Part shown: positions 13,720-40,589 of the stretch, in pieces | Layout: the number at the start of each line of letters is the position of its first letter | Position numbering within the stretch: the stretch's first letter is position 1 | The notes under the pieces: model-generated | What the model was told of the DNA's origin: nothing | What the model saw: only the letters and a program-made list of their open reading frames with translations | The model's database searches: none | Program-made: the position numbers and the translations under genes | Assembly: GCF_017304615.1 (NCBI RefSeq) | Contig: NZ_JAFKLZ010000003.1 | Location: forward strand, 124,001-188,000 | Source: Sphingomonas sp. | Lineage (GTDB): Bacteria; Pseudomonadota; Alphaproteobacteria; Sphingomonadales; Sphingomonadaceae | Direction of reading: 5' to 3' | Length of the DNA stretch: 64,000 nt

Positions 13720-14622
13720 CTATTGCTTGAACGATCCCGCGCGCCACAGGAGCGTGATCGACACGCGGCGGTTGCGCGGATCGGTGGGGTTGTTCTGAAT
13801 CATCGGCTCGCGATCCGCGACGCCTTCGATGCGATAGAAGCGCGCCTCTGGCGTGCCGCCCGCCGCGAGCCGGCGACGTGTCGCCTCGGCGCGGCCTGAC
13901 GACAGCATCCAGTTGTTCATGTTGAGCGGGTTGCCGTACCCCAGGCTGTCGGTGTGGCCGCGGATCATGATCGGGTTCTTGGTGTCTTTGATCGTCTGCG
14001 CGATCAGCCCGATCAACTTATCAGCCTCCGGCACCAATTGCGTCGTGCCCAGCGCGAACATCGAATAATCGGCATCGTCGACAAGGTCGATGCGGAGGCC
14101 GTCCTGGGTCTGGACGAAGCGGACATGGCTCGCCAGCCGCTTCATCGGCTGCGCCTGCATCGCGCTCATCAGCGTGCGCTTCATCGCCGCGAAGTTCTTC
14201 GCGTCCTCGGCGGCGGTCGCTTGGTTCTTCATCGAACCCTTATCGCCCGACCCTTCCTTGTTGCCGCCGGTCGCGCCGATCGGGATCGTCATCGAGCGCG
14301 TGCCGGTCTGCGCGGCGCGGGCAGGGTAATTGTCCTTGTCGGTGATCGACGAACCGCCGAAAATGCCGTTGGAGCCGGCGCTGTTCTGCTTCAACTCGAC
14401 GAGCGTCGGCGCAAAATAGTCGGCGATCGACTTGCGCTGCTTCTCGGTCGTCGCGCCCAGGATCCACAGCAGCAGGAAGAACGCCATCATCGCGGTCACG
14501 AAGTCGGCATAGGCGACCTTCCATGCGCCGCCGTGATGGCCGCCATGGCCCTCGATGAAGATCTTCTTGACGATGATCTTCGGAGGTTGGTTGTTGCCGT
14601 GTGGAGCGCGCGCCGCGGCCAT
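13720..14622 (-). CDS. motB: Flagellar motor stator protein MotB
   Basis: A 300-residue stator subunit with one N-terminal membrane helix and a periplasmic OmpA-like peptidoglycan-binding domain. The proton-binding aspartate is Asp40 in AYADFVTAMMAFFLLLWIL. The OmpA core is seen as MIRGHTDSLGY ... NNWMLSSGRAEATRR ... RRVSITLLW. The linker between carries the usual plug region. Its ATG directly follows a TAA (14623-14625) that is out of the motA frame as written. Its first 383 bases are overlapped by the run-on motA frame. Confidence 0.96.
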   Translation of the reverse strand: MAAARAPHGNNQPPKIIVKKIFIEGHGGHHGGAWKVAYADFVTAMMAFFLLLWILGATTEKQRKSIADYFAPTLVELKQNSAGSNGIFGGSSITDKDNYPARAAQTGTRSMTIPIGATGGNKEGSGDKGSMKNQATAAEDAKNFAAMKRTLMSAMQAQPMKRLASHVRFVQTQDGLRIDLVDDADYSMFALGTTQLVPEADKLIGLIAQTIKDTKNPIMIRGHTDSLGYGNPLNMNNWMLSSGRAEATRRRLAAGGTPEARFYRIEGVADREPMIQNNPTDPRNRRVSITLLWRAGSFKQ

Positions 14623-15514
14623 TTATGCGGCTCCTGACGGAGCCGTGCGGCACCAGCCCGCGCAGGCCGTCGAAGACCTCCGCGAAGCCCGGCTGGTTCG
14701 AGTGTGCGATGCCCGAGCGGGCGGCTTCGATCACCAGCGGCTGCGGGTGGCCGTGGAGCGAGGCGATGATGATCTGCTTGACGACATGATAGATCGCGGC
14801 GTCCGCGTCGATCACTTGCTTCAGGCGATTGGCGAGCGGGCCGACGATGCCATAGGCGAGCAGCACGCCCAGGAACGTTCCGACCAGCGCGGAGCCGATC
14901 ATGCCGCCCAGGATTGCGGGCGGCTTGTCGATCGAACCCATCGTCTTCACGACGCCCAGCACCGCCGCGACGATGCCGAGCGCGGGGAGCGCGTCGCCGA
15001 GCGACTGCAGCGTGCCCTGCGGGCCTTCGACCTCATGGTGGTGGGTCTTGATCGCGTTATCCATCACTTCCTCGACCGCGTGAACGTCGAGCGTACCCGA
15101 CGACACGACGACAAGGCGCAGCGTGTCCGAGATCAGGTTGGTGAGCGTGTGGTCGGCCAGCAGCCGGGGATATTCGGCGAATACGGCGGACGATTTGGGG
15201 TCTTCGACGTGCGGTTCGAGCGCGATCGGCCCGTCCATCCGCAGCATCTTCATCAGCTTCGACACGAGGAAGATGACGTCGAGATAGTCCTGTTTCTTGT
15301 ATTTGGGGCCCTTCAGCACCTTCATGACGCCGCCGCCCAGCGCCTTCAGCTCCTTCATCGAATTGCCGATGATCAGCGCGCCCATTGCGGCGCCGCCGAT
15401 GATCAGCATCTCGTGGGGAATGGCCTCCAGCACCGGCCCCAGCGCGCCGCCCGTGAAGACGAACCCGCCGAACACCATCGCCAACAGAACAACCAGGCCG
15501 ATGACCGGAAACAT
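14240..15514 (-). CDS. motA: Flagellar motor stator protein MotA, frame runs past its expected stop
   Basis: MotA forms the ion channel with MotB. ATG 15514 (MFPVIGLVVLLAMVFGG) is chosen because it aligns with known MotA starts. Membrane segments, the cytoplasmic loop and the late LPALGIVAAVLGVVKTMG and GSALVGTFLGVLLAYG are typical, ending at EVFDGLRG (about residue 286). From there the written frame does not stop but continues for about 138 residues in an alternative frame of motB to a stop at 14240. If one G of the GGG at 14657-14659 were absent, MotA would end after ten more residues at TAA 14623-14625, directly abutting the motB ATG. A one-base insertion or sequencing error is therefore likely, and the true gene would be 14623-15514. 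Confidence 0.85.
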   Translation of the reverse strand: MFPVIGLVVLLAMVFGGFVFTGGALGPVLEAIPHEMLIIGGAAMGALIIGNSMKELKALGGGVMKVLKGPKYKKQDYLDVIFLVSKLMKMLRMDGPIALEPHVEDPKSSAVFAEYPRLLADHTLTNLISDTLRLVVVSSGTLDVHAVEEVMDNAIKTHHHEVEGPQGTLQSLGDALPALGIVAAVLGVVKTMGSIDKPPAILGGMIGSALVGTFLGVLLAYGIVGPLANRLKQVIDADAAIYHVVKQIIIASLHGHPQPLVIEAARSGIAHSNQPGFAEVFDGLRGLVPHGSVRSRINGRGARSTRQQPTSEDHRQEDLHRGPWRPSRRRMEGRLCRLRDRDDGVLPAAVDPGRDDREAAQVDRRLFCADARRVEAEQRRLQRHFRRFVDHRQGQLPCPRRADRHALDDDPDRRDRRQQGRVGR

Positions 15515-24108: not shown

Positions 24109-24462
24109 TTATTCTCCCCGCAGCGCGCGCGTGATCTGGTTGATGCGGCCGTTCAGGAACGCCAGCGTCGTCTGATACTGGACGGCGTTTTCCGCGAAGG
24201 CGGTCTGTTCGGTCGACAGGTCGACGGTGTTGCCGTCGAGGCTGGGCTGCAGCGGGACGCGATACATCGTTGCGCTTTTCAGCGCGCCGTCGATGCTGCC
24301 CCCGCCGCTGGTCGCGGACGTCAGCGCCTTCTGGAAATCGATGTCCTTCGCCTTGAAGCCAGGCGTCGACGAGTTGGCGATGTTCGAGGCGAGAATACCC
24401 ATGCGCTGGCCGCGCACTTCGAGCGCCGCCCCATGTATCCCGAACAGACTGTTGTCGGCCAT
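24109..24462 (-). CDS. flgB: Flagellar basal-body rod protein FlgB
   Basis: A 117-residue proximal rod protein and first gene of the flgB-H operon. ATG 24462 (MADNSLFGIHGAALEVRGQR) is used although the frame is open upstream, because FlgB starts here and a GAGGA site precedes it. Motifs: LASNIANSSTPGFKAKDIDFQ and C-terminal QYQTTLAFLNGRINQI. A near-perfect sigma54 promoter at 24499-24514 predicts a transcript with a leader of about 26 nt. Confidence 0.94.
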   Translation of the reverse strand: MADNSLFGIHGAALEVRGQRMGILASNIANSSTPGFKAKDIDFQKALTSATSGGGSIDGALKSATMYRVPLQPSLDGNTVDLSTEQTAFAENAVQYQTTLAFLNGRINQITRALRGE

Positions 24463-24615
24463 TGCCGGTCCTCGCGTTAAATTCCTGCGCGAGAGTTCAG
24501 CAAAGCCCGTGCCAATTGCCGGTCGGTGCGCTTTTTTCGGTGCGGCGGCGGCGAAAGCGGCAAGGGATTGCCGGTCGGCGGCAAGTCGATTGCCGGTTTT
24601 CTGGCTGCGTTGCCG
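24462..24615. promoter_or_regulatory. Array of TTGCCG/CGGCAA half-sites between divergent sigma54 promoters
   Basis: Half-sites TTGCCG occur at 24463-24468, 24516-24521, 24568-24573, 24590-24595 and 24610-24615, with CGGCAA at 24558-24563 and 24579-24584. The central ones form inverted pairs spaced 4-5 nt. The array lies between two sigma54 promoters, where enhancer-binding activators act, and the same inverted pair sits upstream of the activator gene at 32638. It is comparable in position to the ftr elements used by Caulobacter FlbD. Confidence 0.6.
24499..24514 (-). promoter_or_regulatory. Sigma54 promoter of the flgB operon
   Basis: The minus strand reads TGGCACGGGCTTTGCT, matching the consensus TGGCACG-N4-TTGCW at every defined position. 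GG and GC are separated by exactly 10 nt. The predicted start lies near 24488, 26 nt before the flgB ATG. Confidence 0.85.
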
Positions 24616-24638
24616 GTCGCAGGGGAGCGGTCCTGAGT

Positions 24639-24654
24639 TGGCCCGGGCCTTGCA
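24639..24654 (+). promoter_or_regulatory. Sigma54 promoter of the second MotA-like gene
   Basis: TGGCCCGGGCCTTGCA differs from the consensus at one defined base, with correct 10-nt GG/GC spacing. The predicted transcript start (about 24665) falls two bases before the ATG at 24667, so the mRNA would be essentially leaderless. Confidence 0.75.
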
Positions 24655-24666
24655 ACATCCTCGCGC

Positions 24667-25329
24667 ATGATCACGCCCGACGCGCTTGGCCCCTATCTCG
24701 ATCCCGCTGCGATCCTCATCGTCGCCGGCGGCACGATCGTCGCGACGGTGTTGCGCACGCCGCTGCGCGACCTCGGCGGAGGGATGGCCGCGCTGGCAAC
24801 GCTGCCGCGCCATGCGTTCGACGCGACGCCGCTGATCGACCAGATCGCCGCGCTCGGCCGGATCGCCCGGCGTCACGGCGTCCATACGCTCGATCGCTCG
24901 GTGATCGCCGATGCCGACGTAGCCGCCGCGATCGCCGAGATCGTCGATGGCGCGACCCCCGCCGACGTCACCCGGTTGCTTGATGAACGCCGACGCGCGC
25001 GCATCCTGCGCGAGGCGGGGGCCGCCGACATGTGGGCCGGCATGGCCGAAGTCGCGCCCGCGATGGGCATGGTCGGCACGTTGATCGGATTGGTGAAGAT
25101 GTTCCTGGCGATGCAGGATCCGACCGCGATCGGCGCGGGCATGGCGGTCGCCTTGCTCGCAACGCTCTATGGGGCGCTTATCGCCAACCTCGTCGCGATG
25201 CCGGTCGCCGTCCGCCTGCGCCGCCGCGCGCGCGCCGAGGCGGAGGAGCGGTCGCGGTTAGTCGCGCCGCTCGCCGCGCTTGCTGACCATGAAAGGCCAC
25301 GCGGTTCTATCGTGTCGGCTGCGGCATGA
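24667..25329 (+). CDS. Second MotA/PomA-like stator protein lacking the first membrane segment
   Basis: A 220-residue protein of the MotA/TolQ/ExbB proton-channel family. Residues 10-30 (YLDPAAILIVAGGTIVATVL) align with the second helix of PomA/MotA, and EVAPAMGMVGTLIGLVKMF plus MAVALLATLYGALIANLVAMP with the third and fourth. The first helix is missing: a stop lies in frame at 24634-24636 and no upstream start exists. It overlaps the next gene by four bases. It is divergent from flgB and shares the operator array. It might form a second stator, or serve in P-ring assembly given the linkage to flgA. Clearly distinct from the motA at 15514. Confidence 0.8.
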   Translation: MITPDALGPYLDPAAILIVAGGTIVATVLRTPLRDLGGGMAALATLPRHAFDATPLIDQIAALGRIARRHGVHTLDRSVIADADVAAAIAEIVDGATPADVTRLLDERRRARILREAGAADMWAGMAEVAPAMGMVGTLIGLVKMFLAMQDPTAIGAGMAVALLATLYGALIANLVAMPVAVRLRRRARAEAEERSRLVAPLAALADHERPRGSIVSAAA

Positions 25330-25841
25330 CCGACGACGCGGTCCTCGATCCGCCACCCGTGCGTCCGCTCTGGCTGTGGACGCTCGCCGACCTGGCGTTG
25401 CTGCTGATCGGCTTCTTCGTGCTCGTGCAGGCGACCGACCGCCGCGCGCTGGCCAAGGGGCTGCGCGAAGGGTTCGGCGTCGCCGCGCCCGAAACGCCGC
25501 CCGAACCGATTCCGCTCGCCGCCGCCGCCGTTGCGTTCGCCATCGGTTCGGCGGCGCCGCAATCGCCCGTGACGCTCATCGATTTCGCCACTGTCAACCT
25601 GCGTGATCCGCGTGCGAGTCTCCGCGTGAGTGGCGGGACGAGCGGGGCAGGGGATGTGGACCCCGCAACCGGCAGCGCCGATCTGCTCGCCACCGACCGG
25701 GCGCGCGCGATCGTATCCTATCTCATCGCTAACGGCGTCGCCGCCCACCGCATCCGCATCGCCCCGGCGGGCACCGGGCGTCGCAATGCGCTCGTCACCG
25801 TCAGCTTTACCGGCGATCCTGCCGACAGGACCAGGCCATGA
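25326..25841 (+). CDS. MotB-like protein with short OmpA-type C-terminus
   Basis: A 171-residue partner of the upstream MotA-like protein. One membrane helix near the N-terminus (LWLWTLADLALLLIGFFVLV) holds Asp22, aligning with the proton-binding Asp of MotB (YADF versus LADL). The C-terminal part (TDRARAIVSYLIANGVAAHRIRIAPAG) matches the second half of OmpA/MotB peptidoglycan-binding domains, but the first half is shortened. Its stop overlaps the flgA ATG, so the two genes are coupled. Confidence 0.75.
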   Translation: MTDDAVLDPPPVRPLWLWTLADLALLLIGFFVLVQATDRRALAKGLREGFGVAAPETPPEPIPLAAAAVAFAIGSAAPQSPVTLIDFATVNLRDPRASLRVSGGTSGAGDVDPATGSADLLATDRARAIVSYLIANGVAAHRIRIAPAGTGRRNALVTVSFTGDPADRTRP

Positions 25842-26368
25842 TCCGTTCGACTATAACCTTCTTTGCCACCGTCGCCGCACTTCCGGCGGCGGCGCAGAAT
25901 TTCCAGAGCACGACCCTGATCGACAGGGCCGTCGCGGGCTTCACCGGTCATGCGATCGGCGAGGATGGCGGCGCGCGCACCGCAGTCGACAGCCGGCTCA
26001 AGCTGGCCGCGTGCCCAATGGTGACCATGAACTGGCGCACGCCCGCGCGCGACTCCGTGGTCGTGGCGTGTCCCGATCCCGAATGGCGCATCTTCGTGCC
26101 GGTCCGCATCGCCGCGCCCGCCGTCGTGCCGCCGAGTCCGCTCGCGCCGACGCCGCCCGCGGTGGCCAAACCCGTGATCGTCATCAAGCGCGGCGATCCG
26201 GTGTCGGTGACCGCCGGCAGCGACGGTTTCGCGGTCACGCGCGACGGCGTCGCGGTCAACGATGCCGCGGCTGGCGCACGCGTGCTGATTAAGATCGCCG
26301 ATGGCAAACCGCCGATCCAGGCTATCGCGGTCGAACCCGGCAAGGCCGTGATTCCGGGCGGCGAATAA
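25838..26368 (+). CDS. flgA: Flagellar P-ring assembly chaperone FlgA
   Basis: A 176-residue periplasmic protein with signal peptide MIRSTITFFATVAALPAAAQ. A SAF-like C-terminal region (VIKRGDPVSVTAGSDGFAVTRDG and RVLIKIADGKPPIQAIAVEPG) is the FlgA signature. Two cysteines (LAACPM, VVACPD) are placed as in FlgA. A Pro-rich linker joins the halves. Its translational overlap with the MotB-like gene is unusual. Confidence 0.88.
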   Translation: MIRSTITFFATVAALPAAAQNFQSTTLIDRAVAGFTGHAIGEDGGARTAVDSRLKLAACPMVTMNWRTPARDSVVVACPDPEWRIFVPVRIAAPAVVPPSPLAPTPPAVAKPVIVIKRGDPVSVTAGSDGFAVTRDGVAVNDAAAGARVLIKIADGKPPIQAIAVEPGKAVIPGGE

Positions 26369-32441: not shown

Positions 32442-32563
32442 GTAATTTTATTTGGGGCCGCGTAGATCACGCGCCGGGCCGACCTGGCCCTGCCGCTCGA
32501 TGCCGTCCTCCCCTTCCACGCGGGGGCGTGCGCGCGCGTGCGCGTCCCGCCGCCGGAAATTTC

Positions 32564-32579
32564 TTGCCGCTTCCGGCAA
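32564..32579. promoter_or_regulatory. Inverted TTGCCG-N4-CGGCAA operator upstream of the sigma54 activator
   Basis: This perfect inverted pair lies about 60 nt upstream of the activator ATG at 32638. It uses the same half-sites as the array at 24462-24615, so the activator may control its own gene and the flgB and stator-like promoters. Confidence 0.5.
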
Positions 32580-32584
32580 CGTGC

Positions 32585-32599
32585 TTAACCGGTCGTTTA
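32585..32599 (+). promoter_or_regulatory. CtrA-like box upstream of the sigma54 activator
   Basis: TTAA-N7-TTTA differs from the CtrA consensus TTAA-N7-TTAA at one base. It lies 39-53 nt before the ATG at 32638, immediately after the inverted operator. CtrA drives top-tier flagellar genes in several alphaproteobacteria, so the position is plausible. Confidence 0.4.
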
Positions 32600-32637
32600 C
32601 TATGTTTGCGGCATTCCCTCTCTCGAAGGGGGAATAC

Positions 32638-33905
<1,268 letters not shown>

Positions 33906-33909
<4 letters not shown>

Positions 33910-39470: not shown

Positions 39471-40589
39471 ATGACCGATCTGACCATGTCTGCCGCCAGC
39501 TCCGTCGCGCTGCCTACCAAGGCTGCGCCGCCCTCGGTTAACGCGCCCGGTTCGTCGAACCAGGGTGGGTTCTGCCAAGTGATGAACGACAAGCAGTTCA
39601 AGCCCAAGATCAAGGCGCCCGCCGACGAGGAAAAGTGGCAAGACGATGCCGCGACCGGCAAGGAATTGCCGGATAAGGACAAAAGCACAGACCCTGCGCT
39701 CGCCTGGCTGTTGGGCGGGCCGGCGATCGTGTTGCCTGCGCCGACACCTGTGCCAACGCCGCTGGTCACCGCGATCGCCTCGCCGCCGGTGACACCCGAA
39801 GCGGTTCCGGACGGTGCGCCGGCGGTGCTGACCGCAACTGTTGCGCCCGAAGTGAAGCCGCTACCGGTCGAACCGCAGGGCATTTGCGACGTCGATGTCG
39901 TGAAGCCCAAGATGCTGACGCAGCCTGAGGTTGCGCCGGCCGCTCCGCCCGACGCGTCGCCCCAGCCGATCAAGCTGCCGCCGCTTCAGCTGCGAATCCC
40001 CGAGATAGCCACCAGCGCGGCGCCCGCGACGTCCGCCGCCGTGCTGCCCGCGCTGTTCGCGCTGTCGATGACGGCGGATCGCAGCGATCGCGACGACAAT
40101 AAGATTTCAACGCTGGCGTCCGTCGCCACGCCATTGTCGCAGCCGACTACTGCGCTCTCGGTCGCGCCGATGGCCGATACGCAGCGCCAGATGCTCGACA
40201 TGGGGCGTCAGGACTGGCCGCAGAAGATGATCGATCACATCGAGGCGCTGCGGGACAACGCCAACGCCAACGACGCGTCGATCCGCTTGAAGCCCGAAGC
40301 GTTGGGCCGCGTGGACATTGCGCTGCGCACCCACACCGACGGCGCGATCAGCGTGCGGTTCACCGCCGAGCAGCCGAGCACGCGGACGATGCTGGTGGAT
40401 GCGACGCCACAGCTTTCCGCCGCCGCCGAAGCGCGCGGCATCCGCCTGTCGGGCACCAGCGTCGATCTGAGCGGGCAGGGCGATCAGCGCTCGCAGTCGC
40501 AGACCGACCGTGCCCGACCGACCACCAATCGCCTCGCCGACGTGCGGGCCGACGACAAGCAGGCCGCCGATGACGGCCGCATCGCTTAA
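39471..40589 (+). CDS. fliK: Flagellar hook-length control protein FliK-like
   Basis: A 372-residue protein with a long Pro/Ala/Val-rich low-complexity N-terminal ruler (about residues 1-220). The C-terminal Flg_hook domain shows RLKPEALGRVDIALRTHTDGAISVRF and AAAEARGIRLSGTSVDLS. Sequence of the ruler is not conserved in the family. The domain order and operon place are. Confidence 0.85.
   Translation: MTDLTMSAASSVALPTKAAPPSVNAPGSSNQGGFCQVMNDKQFKPKIKAPADEEKWQDDAATGKELPDKDKSTDPALAWLLGGPAIVLPAPTPVPTPLVTAIASPPVTPEAVPDGAPAVLTATVAPEVKPLPVEPQGICDVDVVKPKMLTQPEVAPAAPPDASPQPIKLPPLQLRIPEIATSAAPATSAAVLPALFALSMTADRSDRDDNKISTLASVATPLSQPTTALSVAPMADTQRQMLDMGRQDWPQKMIDHIEALRDNANANDASIRLKPEALGRVDIALRTHTDGAISVRFTAEQPSTRTMLVDATPQLSAAAEARGIRLSGTSVDLSGQGDQRSQSQTDRARPTTNRLADVRADDKQAADDGRIA

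Follow-up and report, generated by a model that had tools for sequence, protein, structure and literature searches.

A stator-like gene pair lacking MotA helix 1 at the flgB-flgA junction of Sphingomonadaceae: a possible ion-driven relative of flagellar stators for basal-body assembly

Introduction

What purpose could be served in a flagellar operon by a second MotA/MotB-like gene pair whose A protein begins at transmembrane helix 2 and whose B gene runs into flgA? The pair lies in a 64,000-nt stretch of the Sphingomonas sp. contig NZ_JAFKLZ010000003.1 (the whole stretch is called the window below), from a genome of 3.34 Mb (G000). The initial annotation of the locus offered a second stator, an inhibitor or an assembly factor tied to FlgA and the P ring, and sequence alone picks none of the three. 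Among the traits specific to flagellar stators, a survey published in 2025 and covering 379 stator homologues lists a membrane fold of four helices and a wall anchor of the OmpA type; its main text makes no mention of FlgA or Sphingomonas (PMC12505986). The accessible part of a paper on Sphingomonas flagella gave no match to stator or flgA (PMC13015449), and a literature search of open-licence papers found no publication on this pair. Many members of the family have, within a flagellar operon, a relative of the stators that lacks helix 1 and the wall motif yet retains the residues of the ion path; the pair is a natural test of the purpose of helix 1 and of wall anchoring, and of whether ion flow serves assembly besides rotation. 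The explanation we favor, held with slightly less than even confidence, is that the pair is an ion-driven relative of the stators, three-helix like ExbB/TolQ, which would act with FlgA in basal-body assembly or maturation and would not be a wall-anchored torque stator. In a fuller and more tentative form of this proposal, the pair, if it works this way, would supply energy specifically for the construction of the flagellum and not for its rotation.

Results and Discussion

Gene order and anatomy of the pair

The motA-like gene (24667..25329, forward strand) encodes a 220-aa MotA/PomA homologue without transmembrane helix 1 and with three transmembrane helices by homology (Pfam MotA_ExbB, 6.7e-23; PomA 8brd, 4.5e-28). 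Its MotB-like partner (25326..25841, forward strand; 171 aa) has one transmembrane helix, the invariant Asp22 (the protein's own numbering) and a short periplasmic part with an OmpA remnant and no literal G-x-TD. The gene for the P-ring chaperone, flgA (25838..26368, forward strand; ChapFlgA, 2.1e-7), follows, its ATG overlapping the motB-like stop by 4 nt, and flgB (24109..24462, reverse strand) is the divergent neighbor of motA-like. The pair had been described as fused into the operon, with both members overlapping flgA. They are in fact separate genes within the operon; motB-like overlaps flgA by 4 nt as stated, and motA-like overlaps motB-like, also by 4 nt, not flgA.

The MotA_ExbB domain scores above its cut-off in the window protein and is matched at 0.01 in 40 of 40 aligned sequences, which makes the A protein a member of the MotA/TolQ/ExbB superfamily. 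PMC12505986 names a cytoplasmic torque interface with at least four helices as a stator trait; by sequence comparison the A protein aligns through the PomA cytoplasmic part, and among named records the copies in S. pruni and S. asaccharolytica are 80% and 78% identical to it. The transmembrane helix of the B protein matches PomB weakly (6e-4). Its OmpA match falls under the curated cut-off and begins at profile position 26 of 98, and D22 is present in 38 of 38 aligned proteins, in agreement with the annotated retention of Asp22 and shortening of the OmpA domain. This anatomy, read by homology, is solid. AlphaFold models of the two proteins (built from 5 and 4 sequences) reached pLDDT 55.0 and 50.7, and structure-based comparisons of the pair were set aside as unsafe because both models are poor; the low-confidence MotA-like model (pLDDT 55) places helices at 33-44, 56-70 and 83-93, followed by a long helix.

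A normal motA/motB pair was annotated at 13.7-15.5 kb, and the canonical pair is indeed found there (13720-15514, reverse strand). Its four-helix motA frame (14240..15514, reverse strand) carries MotA_N and MotA_ExbB and scores 341 bits against NCBIfam MotA1 (cut-off 303.8); its motB (13720..14622, reverse strand) has an OmpA domain above the cut-off and a GHTD motif. The two pairs share the superfamily and the order of an A gene followed by an overlapping B gene, but they differ in type: the canonical pair, with MotA_N, a full-scoring OmpA domain and GHTD, is of the MotA1 type, whereas the pair beside flgA is of the PomA type. The two A proteins are 29% identical over residues 123-218. The canonical motA homology ends near 14650, and the frame continues for about 130 codons past the stop of its relatives, some 380 nt over motB.

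Absence of helix 1

Residues 3-212 of the MotA-like protein correspond to PomA 22-232 (PDB 8brd, 4.5e-28), and its residue 1 falls on position 20 of the NCBIfam PomA profile (140.8 bits, under that family's 341-bit cut-off). The missing part is therefore helix 1 and the protein starts at helix 2, as had been annotated. An in-frame TGA (24634..24636, forward strand) lies 33 nt before the motA-like ATG with no start codon between, which rules out a longer reading carrying helix 1 in the window. In many relatives the frame is open upstream, as it would be if the true start had been missed and helix 1 were present after all. However, in a uniform scan of the 45 residues preceding helix 2, a helix-like stretch was found in 0 of 90 related loci (37 of them too short for one) and in 68 of 69 four-helix control relatives. 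The single exception among the controls (L042) has a sequence that resembles helix 1, but its frame has no start codon. With the in-frame stop in the window and a putative sigma54 site ending 13 nt before the ATG, an annotation artefact is barely credible, and it was rejected on the outcome of the scan. Helix 1 was also seen in all 65 control loci from outside the family, a set made up of best-scoring or chosen hits rather than all hits.

A tree of 113 proteins, restricted to alignment columns from helix 2 on, places the 43 helix-1-less rows together on one side of a branch with 99% SH-aLRT support; it comes from a quick search without bootstrap, and some long branches were flagged. A single origin of the helix-1 loss is consistent with this tree. 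The four-helix square transmembrane fold, which PMC12505986 gives as a trait of flagellar stators (its FIT group), is absent from the MotA-like protein. The three-helix A subunit, a trait of ExbB/TolQ, is present, as counted by homology to PomA TM2-TM4 and not from a confident model.

Distribution and position at the flgB-flgA junction

We searched 199 genomes of the same family at a threshold of 1e-10 and obtained matches in 87, distributed over 49 of the 96 genera sampled (three four-helix genomes counted in). Removal of these three (G007, G052, G056) and addition of G079, recognized from its flgA locus, gives a helix-1-less gene in at least 85 of 199 genomes, 84 of them FlgI-positive. This number is a lower bound since G019 holds a further, very diverged copy and is counted as FlgI without the gene. 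FlgI occurs in 133 of the 199 genomes; 49 have FlgI without the pair gene and 65 have neither (Fisher p 1e-19). Forty genomes have FlgI and canonical motA and no match, two of which (G079, G019) do hold a divergent copy; the pair is thus not required for flagella in general.

Canonical motA co-occurs in 83 of the 85 carriers, the exceptions being G036 (degraded cluster) and G143 (fragmentary genome). G036 was considered as a genome with the pair as its sole MotA and was rejected because its flagellar cluster is degraded: in the 38 kb examined, flgK, flgL, motA and motB are unmatched, flgF is partial and flgB is in two pieces. Past flgI in the same genome (L194:1-15500), at the expected place of flgK/flgL/motA/motB, we observed repeated open frames of about 250-266 aa.

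The motA-like gene is flanked by both flgB and flgA in 85 of 88 unique loci (L008-L010 were removed from the locus counts as duplicates of L095, L094 and L096), and the other three loci stop at contig edges. The flgB gene is transcribed divergently, at a median distance of 1503 nt from flgA (87 rows, duplicates included). Among 75 loci scored for gene spacing, a single control included, the 4-nt overlap between the motB-like start and the stop before it recurs in 65. Overlap with flgA is not universal, as seven loci (L041, L046, L071, L077, L085, L087, L093) have about 1-1.5 kb extra between motB-like and flgA. A pattern search missed the MotB-like partner in 17 of 92 loci; hand reading found a partner with the Asp in 12 of these, and the remaining five are two loci that stop at a contig edge (L014, L035) and three four-helix controls (L007, L056, L063).

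The FlgI flanks of 20 of the 48 FlgI-positive genomes without a match were inspected, and the gene was present in one (G079). In the other 19, flgB and flgA are directly adjacent in 13 (206-334 nt between domains), there is no flgA match in four, and two are unclear. The adjacency of flgB and flgA in pair-negative genomes indicates that the pair occupies exactly the flgB-flgA junction. The G079 copy (L102) is a shortened MotA-like gene: an internal piece of its cytoplasmic region is deleted, and the frame is otherwise open.

Conservation of the ion path, rotor charges and wall anchor

P131, T138, L167, G169 and P179 of the MotA-like protein are invariant in 40 of 40 aligned sequences. Position 128 is E or D in all 40 as well, so that with P131 the Glu-Pro motif of TM3, a stator trait in PMC12505986, is present (residue mapping of the present analysis). 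T138 (PomA T158) is found in 40 of 40 and position 166 (PomA T186) is T or S in 40 of 40; all three sodium-coordinating threonines of PomA (T158, T185, T186) occur in 25 of 40, with alanine in place of T185 in the window protein. In the MotB-like protein only M1 and D22 are invariant (38 of 38 aligned), and the mean column identity is 24%.

In the PomAB structure, as described in PMC10374538, TM1 and TM2 form an outer layer around the TM3-TM4 channel, plug release is suggested to be signalled via the peripheral helices, TM1 especially, and PomA R88, E96 and D114 are indispensable for motility. With TM1 as the suggested route of plug control, a PomA-type protein without TM1 could keep the channel and would lose that control. 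A plug plus linker next to the B helix is another stator trait in PMC12505986; MotB_plug is matched at 0.01 in 20 of 38 MotB-like proteins, and the window protein misses this threshold (0.013).

A literal G-x-TD peptidoglycan motif was found in 0 of 38 MotB-like proteins, in contrast to the GHTD of the canonical window MotB. The expanded OmpA-type wall-binding domain, a stator trait according to PMC12505986, is likewise absent from the MotB-like protein, and the residues after the Asp have a median of 140.5, about half of the 260 in canonical MotB. OmpA is still recognized at E 0.01 in 23 of 38 B proteins, and some affinity for the wall may persist, a point against the explanation that we favor.

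These observations bear on whether the pair is an auxiliary stator that contacts FliG and adds torque, or alters ion use through its PomA-type threonines, under special load and without normal wall anchoring or plug control. The nearest solved relatives are PomA structures, the window residues R68, R69, D76 and D94 stand at the positions of PomA R88, K89, E96 and D114, and the conserved T138 and T/S at 166 match PomA T158 and T186. The rotor charges kept in the window's own lineage (R68, D76, D94) would fit a rotor-contacting role and count against the explanation that we favor. On the other hand, charged residues for contact with FliG are a stator trait in PMC12505986, and the full set equivalent to PomA R88, E96 and D114 is complete in only 9 of 40 aligned sequences, the window among them; the literal wall motif is missing in 38 of 38, and the four-helix stator trait reported in PMC12505986 is lacking. 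A missing helix 1, a missing peptidoglycan motif and, in most relatives, an incomplete set of rotor charges all speak against an ordinary second torque stator, and the incomplete charges (31 of 40) together with the lost wall motif make an unanchored energy transducer more likely. We consider an auxiliary stator unlikely, if still a serious candidate.

Another proposal is that the pair modulates canonical MotAB through mixed complexes, occupancy of stator sites or a chaperone activity, as an inhibitor or an assembly helper. Co-occurrence with canonical motA in all carriers except the degraded G036 and the fragmentary G143 speaks for it. Against it, the window canonical MotA is of a different type, at the low identity given above, so that mixed rings are unlikely, and a pure inhibitor would have no need of the channel that the pair preserves. 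Such a modulator seems to us rather improbable.

Fifteen comparisons across eight chosen locus pairs gave dN/dS values of 0.046-0.295 (Nei-Gojobori), and by this estimate the pair is under purifying selection. The homologue search had been suggested as a way to reveal absence from related genomes or disabling damage; what it revealed is a conserved pair between flgB and flgA across the family. A decaying or truncated copy without function would account for the lost helix, the shortened OmpA domain, the strongly diverged B periplasmic part and the many flagellated relatives that lack the pair. It does not account for matches in about half of the genera sampled (the four-helix genomes included), the low dN/dS, the invariant channel residues or an upstream dyad in 87 of 87 loci (see below). 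Decay is very improbable, and we rejected it on conservation, dN/dS and the invariant channel residues.

Relation to known ion-driven systems and proposed role

PomAB, the sodium-driven stator of Vibrio (PomA 8brd/8bri, PomB), shares with the pair homology from helix 2 on, the TM3/TM4 prolines, the PomA T158 position and a B transmembrane helix with the ion-site Asp. The pair differs from it in the absence of helix 1 and of the TM1-TM2 loop, in the short B protein without a literal G-x-TD, in mostly incomplete rotor charges and in its linkage to flgA. ExbB-ExbD/TolQ-TolR resembles the pair in layout: the A protein has three helices, the first two of them separated by a cytoplasmic part, and the B protein is small with a single TM. 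In sequence, by contrast, the MotA-like protein matches PomA (4.5e-28) far better than ExbB (0.0034) or TolQ (0.066), so its closest relation is to neither of the latter, and no TonB/TolA partner was seen in the flgA operon. The second stators MotCD and MotPS resemble the pair in that a second PomA-type pair stands beside a MotA1-type pair in one genome; unlike the pair, they have four helices and a wall-binding domain. The MotP family match of the MotA-like protein (5.7e-30) is far under the cut-off.

The function we infer is as follows. The pair, derived from PomAB, has lost helix 1 of A and the wall-binding motif of B, and would be an ion-driven complex of the inner membrane. The A and B proteins would still form a channel: by homology, five A subunits would surround two B subunits, and the B Asp would be the ion site. 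Ion flow would then move the periplasmic part of B and not the rotor. The layout is closer to ExbBD/TolQR than to a torque stator, as the A protein has three helices and the periplasmic part of B is short and has no wall motif. Plug control of the usual kind would be missing or altered, since helix 1 and the TM1-TM2 loop are both lacking. Given the location at the flgB-flgA junction and the overlap with flgA, the pair would most likely serve a periplasmic step in the maturation of the basal body, supplying its energy or setting its timing; P-ring or FlgA chemistry and local opening of the wall are candidates. The annotated tie to FlgA is supported by gene position and gene overlap. Against a closer link, the operon position may reflect shared timing alone, and seven loci have extra sequence before flgA.

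Promoter region

The pair was annotated as driven by sigma54. A sigma54-type -24/-12 site (TGGCCCGGGCCTTGC, 24639..24653, forward strand) does match in sequence and ends 13 nt before the motA-like ATG, though it is a sequence match and not a mapped promoter; a second such site (TGGCACGGGCTTTGC, 24500..24514, reverse strand) faces flgB. With the usual spacing of sigma54 promoters, the predicted transcription start lies about 2 nt before the motA-like ATG, and the message is predicted to be leaderless. A sigma54 activator gene (32452..33909, forward strand; Sigma54_activat 1.5e-66, Fis-type HTH) is a candidate regulator of the promoter. Strict sigma54 sites occur in 11 of 88 loci, 8 of which (window included) have them 13-14 nt before the start; in L095 the site is 16 nt before the start (by eye). 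These motif matches support sigma54 control of the pair in near relatives only. In 7 of 13 pair-negative flgB-flgA gaps strict sites occur as well, and sigma54 is thus not special to the pair.

Between flgB and motA-like there are seven TTGCCG/CGGCAA boxes (24462..24615), a density (at least four in 260 nt) reached nowhere else in the window, including an exact 16-bp dyad CGGCAA-N4-TTGCCG (24558..24573) as a candidate activator site. Over 87 of the 88 loci (L006 was left out, with too little upstream sequence) the boxes average 3.9 per 260 nt, versus 0.16 in base shuffles, and convergent neighboring boxes are spaced by 4 nt in 86 of 106 cases, which gives the dyad. Allowing at most one mismatch, we found the dyad upstream of the pair in 87 of 87 carrier loci, 70 of them with an exact copy, and in none of 88 coding controls. 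The 13 pair-negative flgB-flgA gaps have 0-2 single boxes each and a one-mismatch dyad in one (L106), a locus with an additional exact dyad outside the gap. The nearest idea for the array is the Caulobacter FlbD/ftr system (PMC3930126), and the dyad is a candidate site here. With this array counted in, the fuller proposal is a tentative one: a former stator, now an unanchored engine of the ExbBD/TolQR kind run by ion flow, would work with FlgA to power a step in basal-body assembly and would have its own promoter array.

Exact dyads number 5 genome-wide, two of them in the flagellar region; if a single mismatch is tolerated they number 61, not much above the 37 of the reversed control. The second exact dyad of the window (39656-39671) falls early inside the open frame called FliK (39471-40589), and the true fliK start may follow the dyad.
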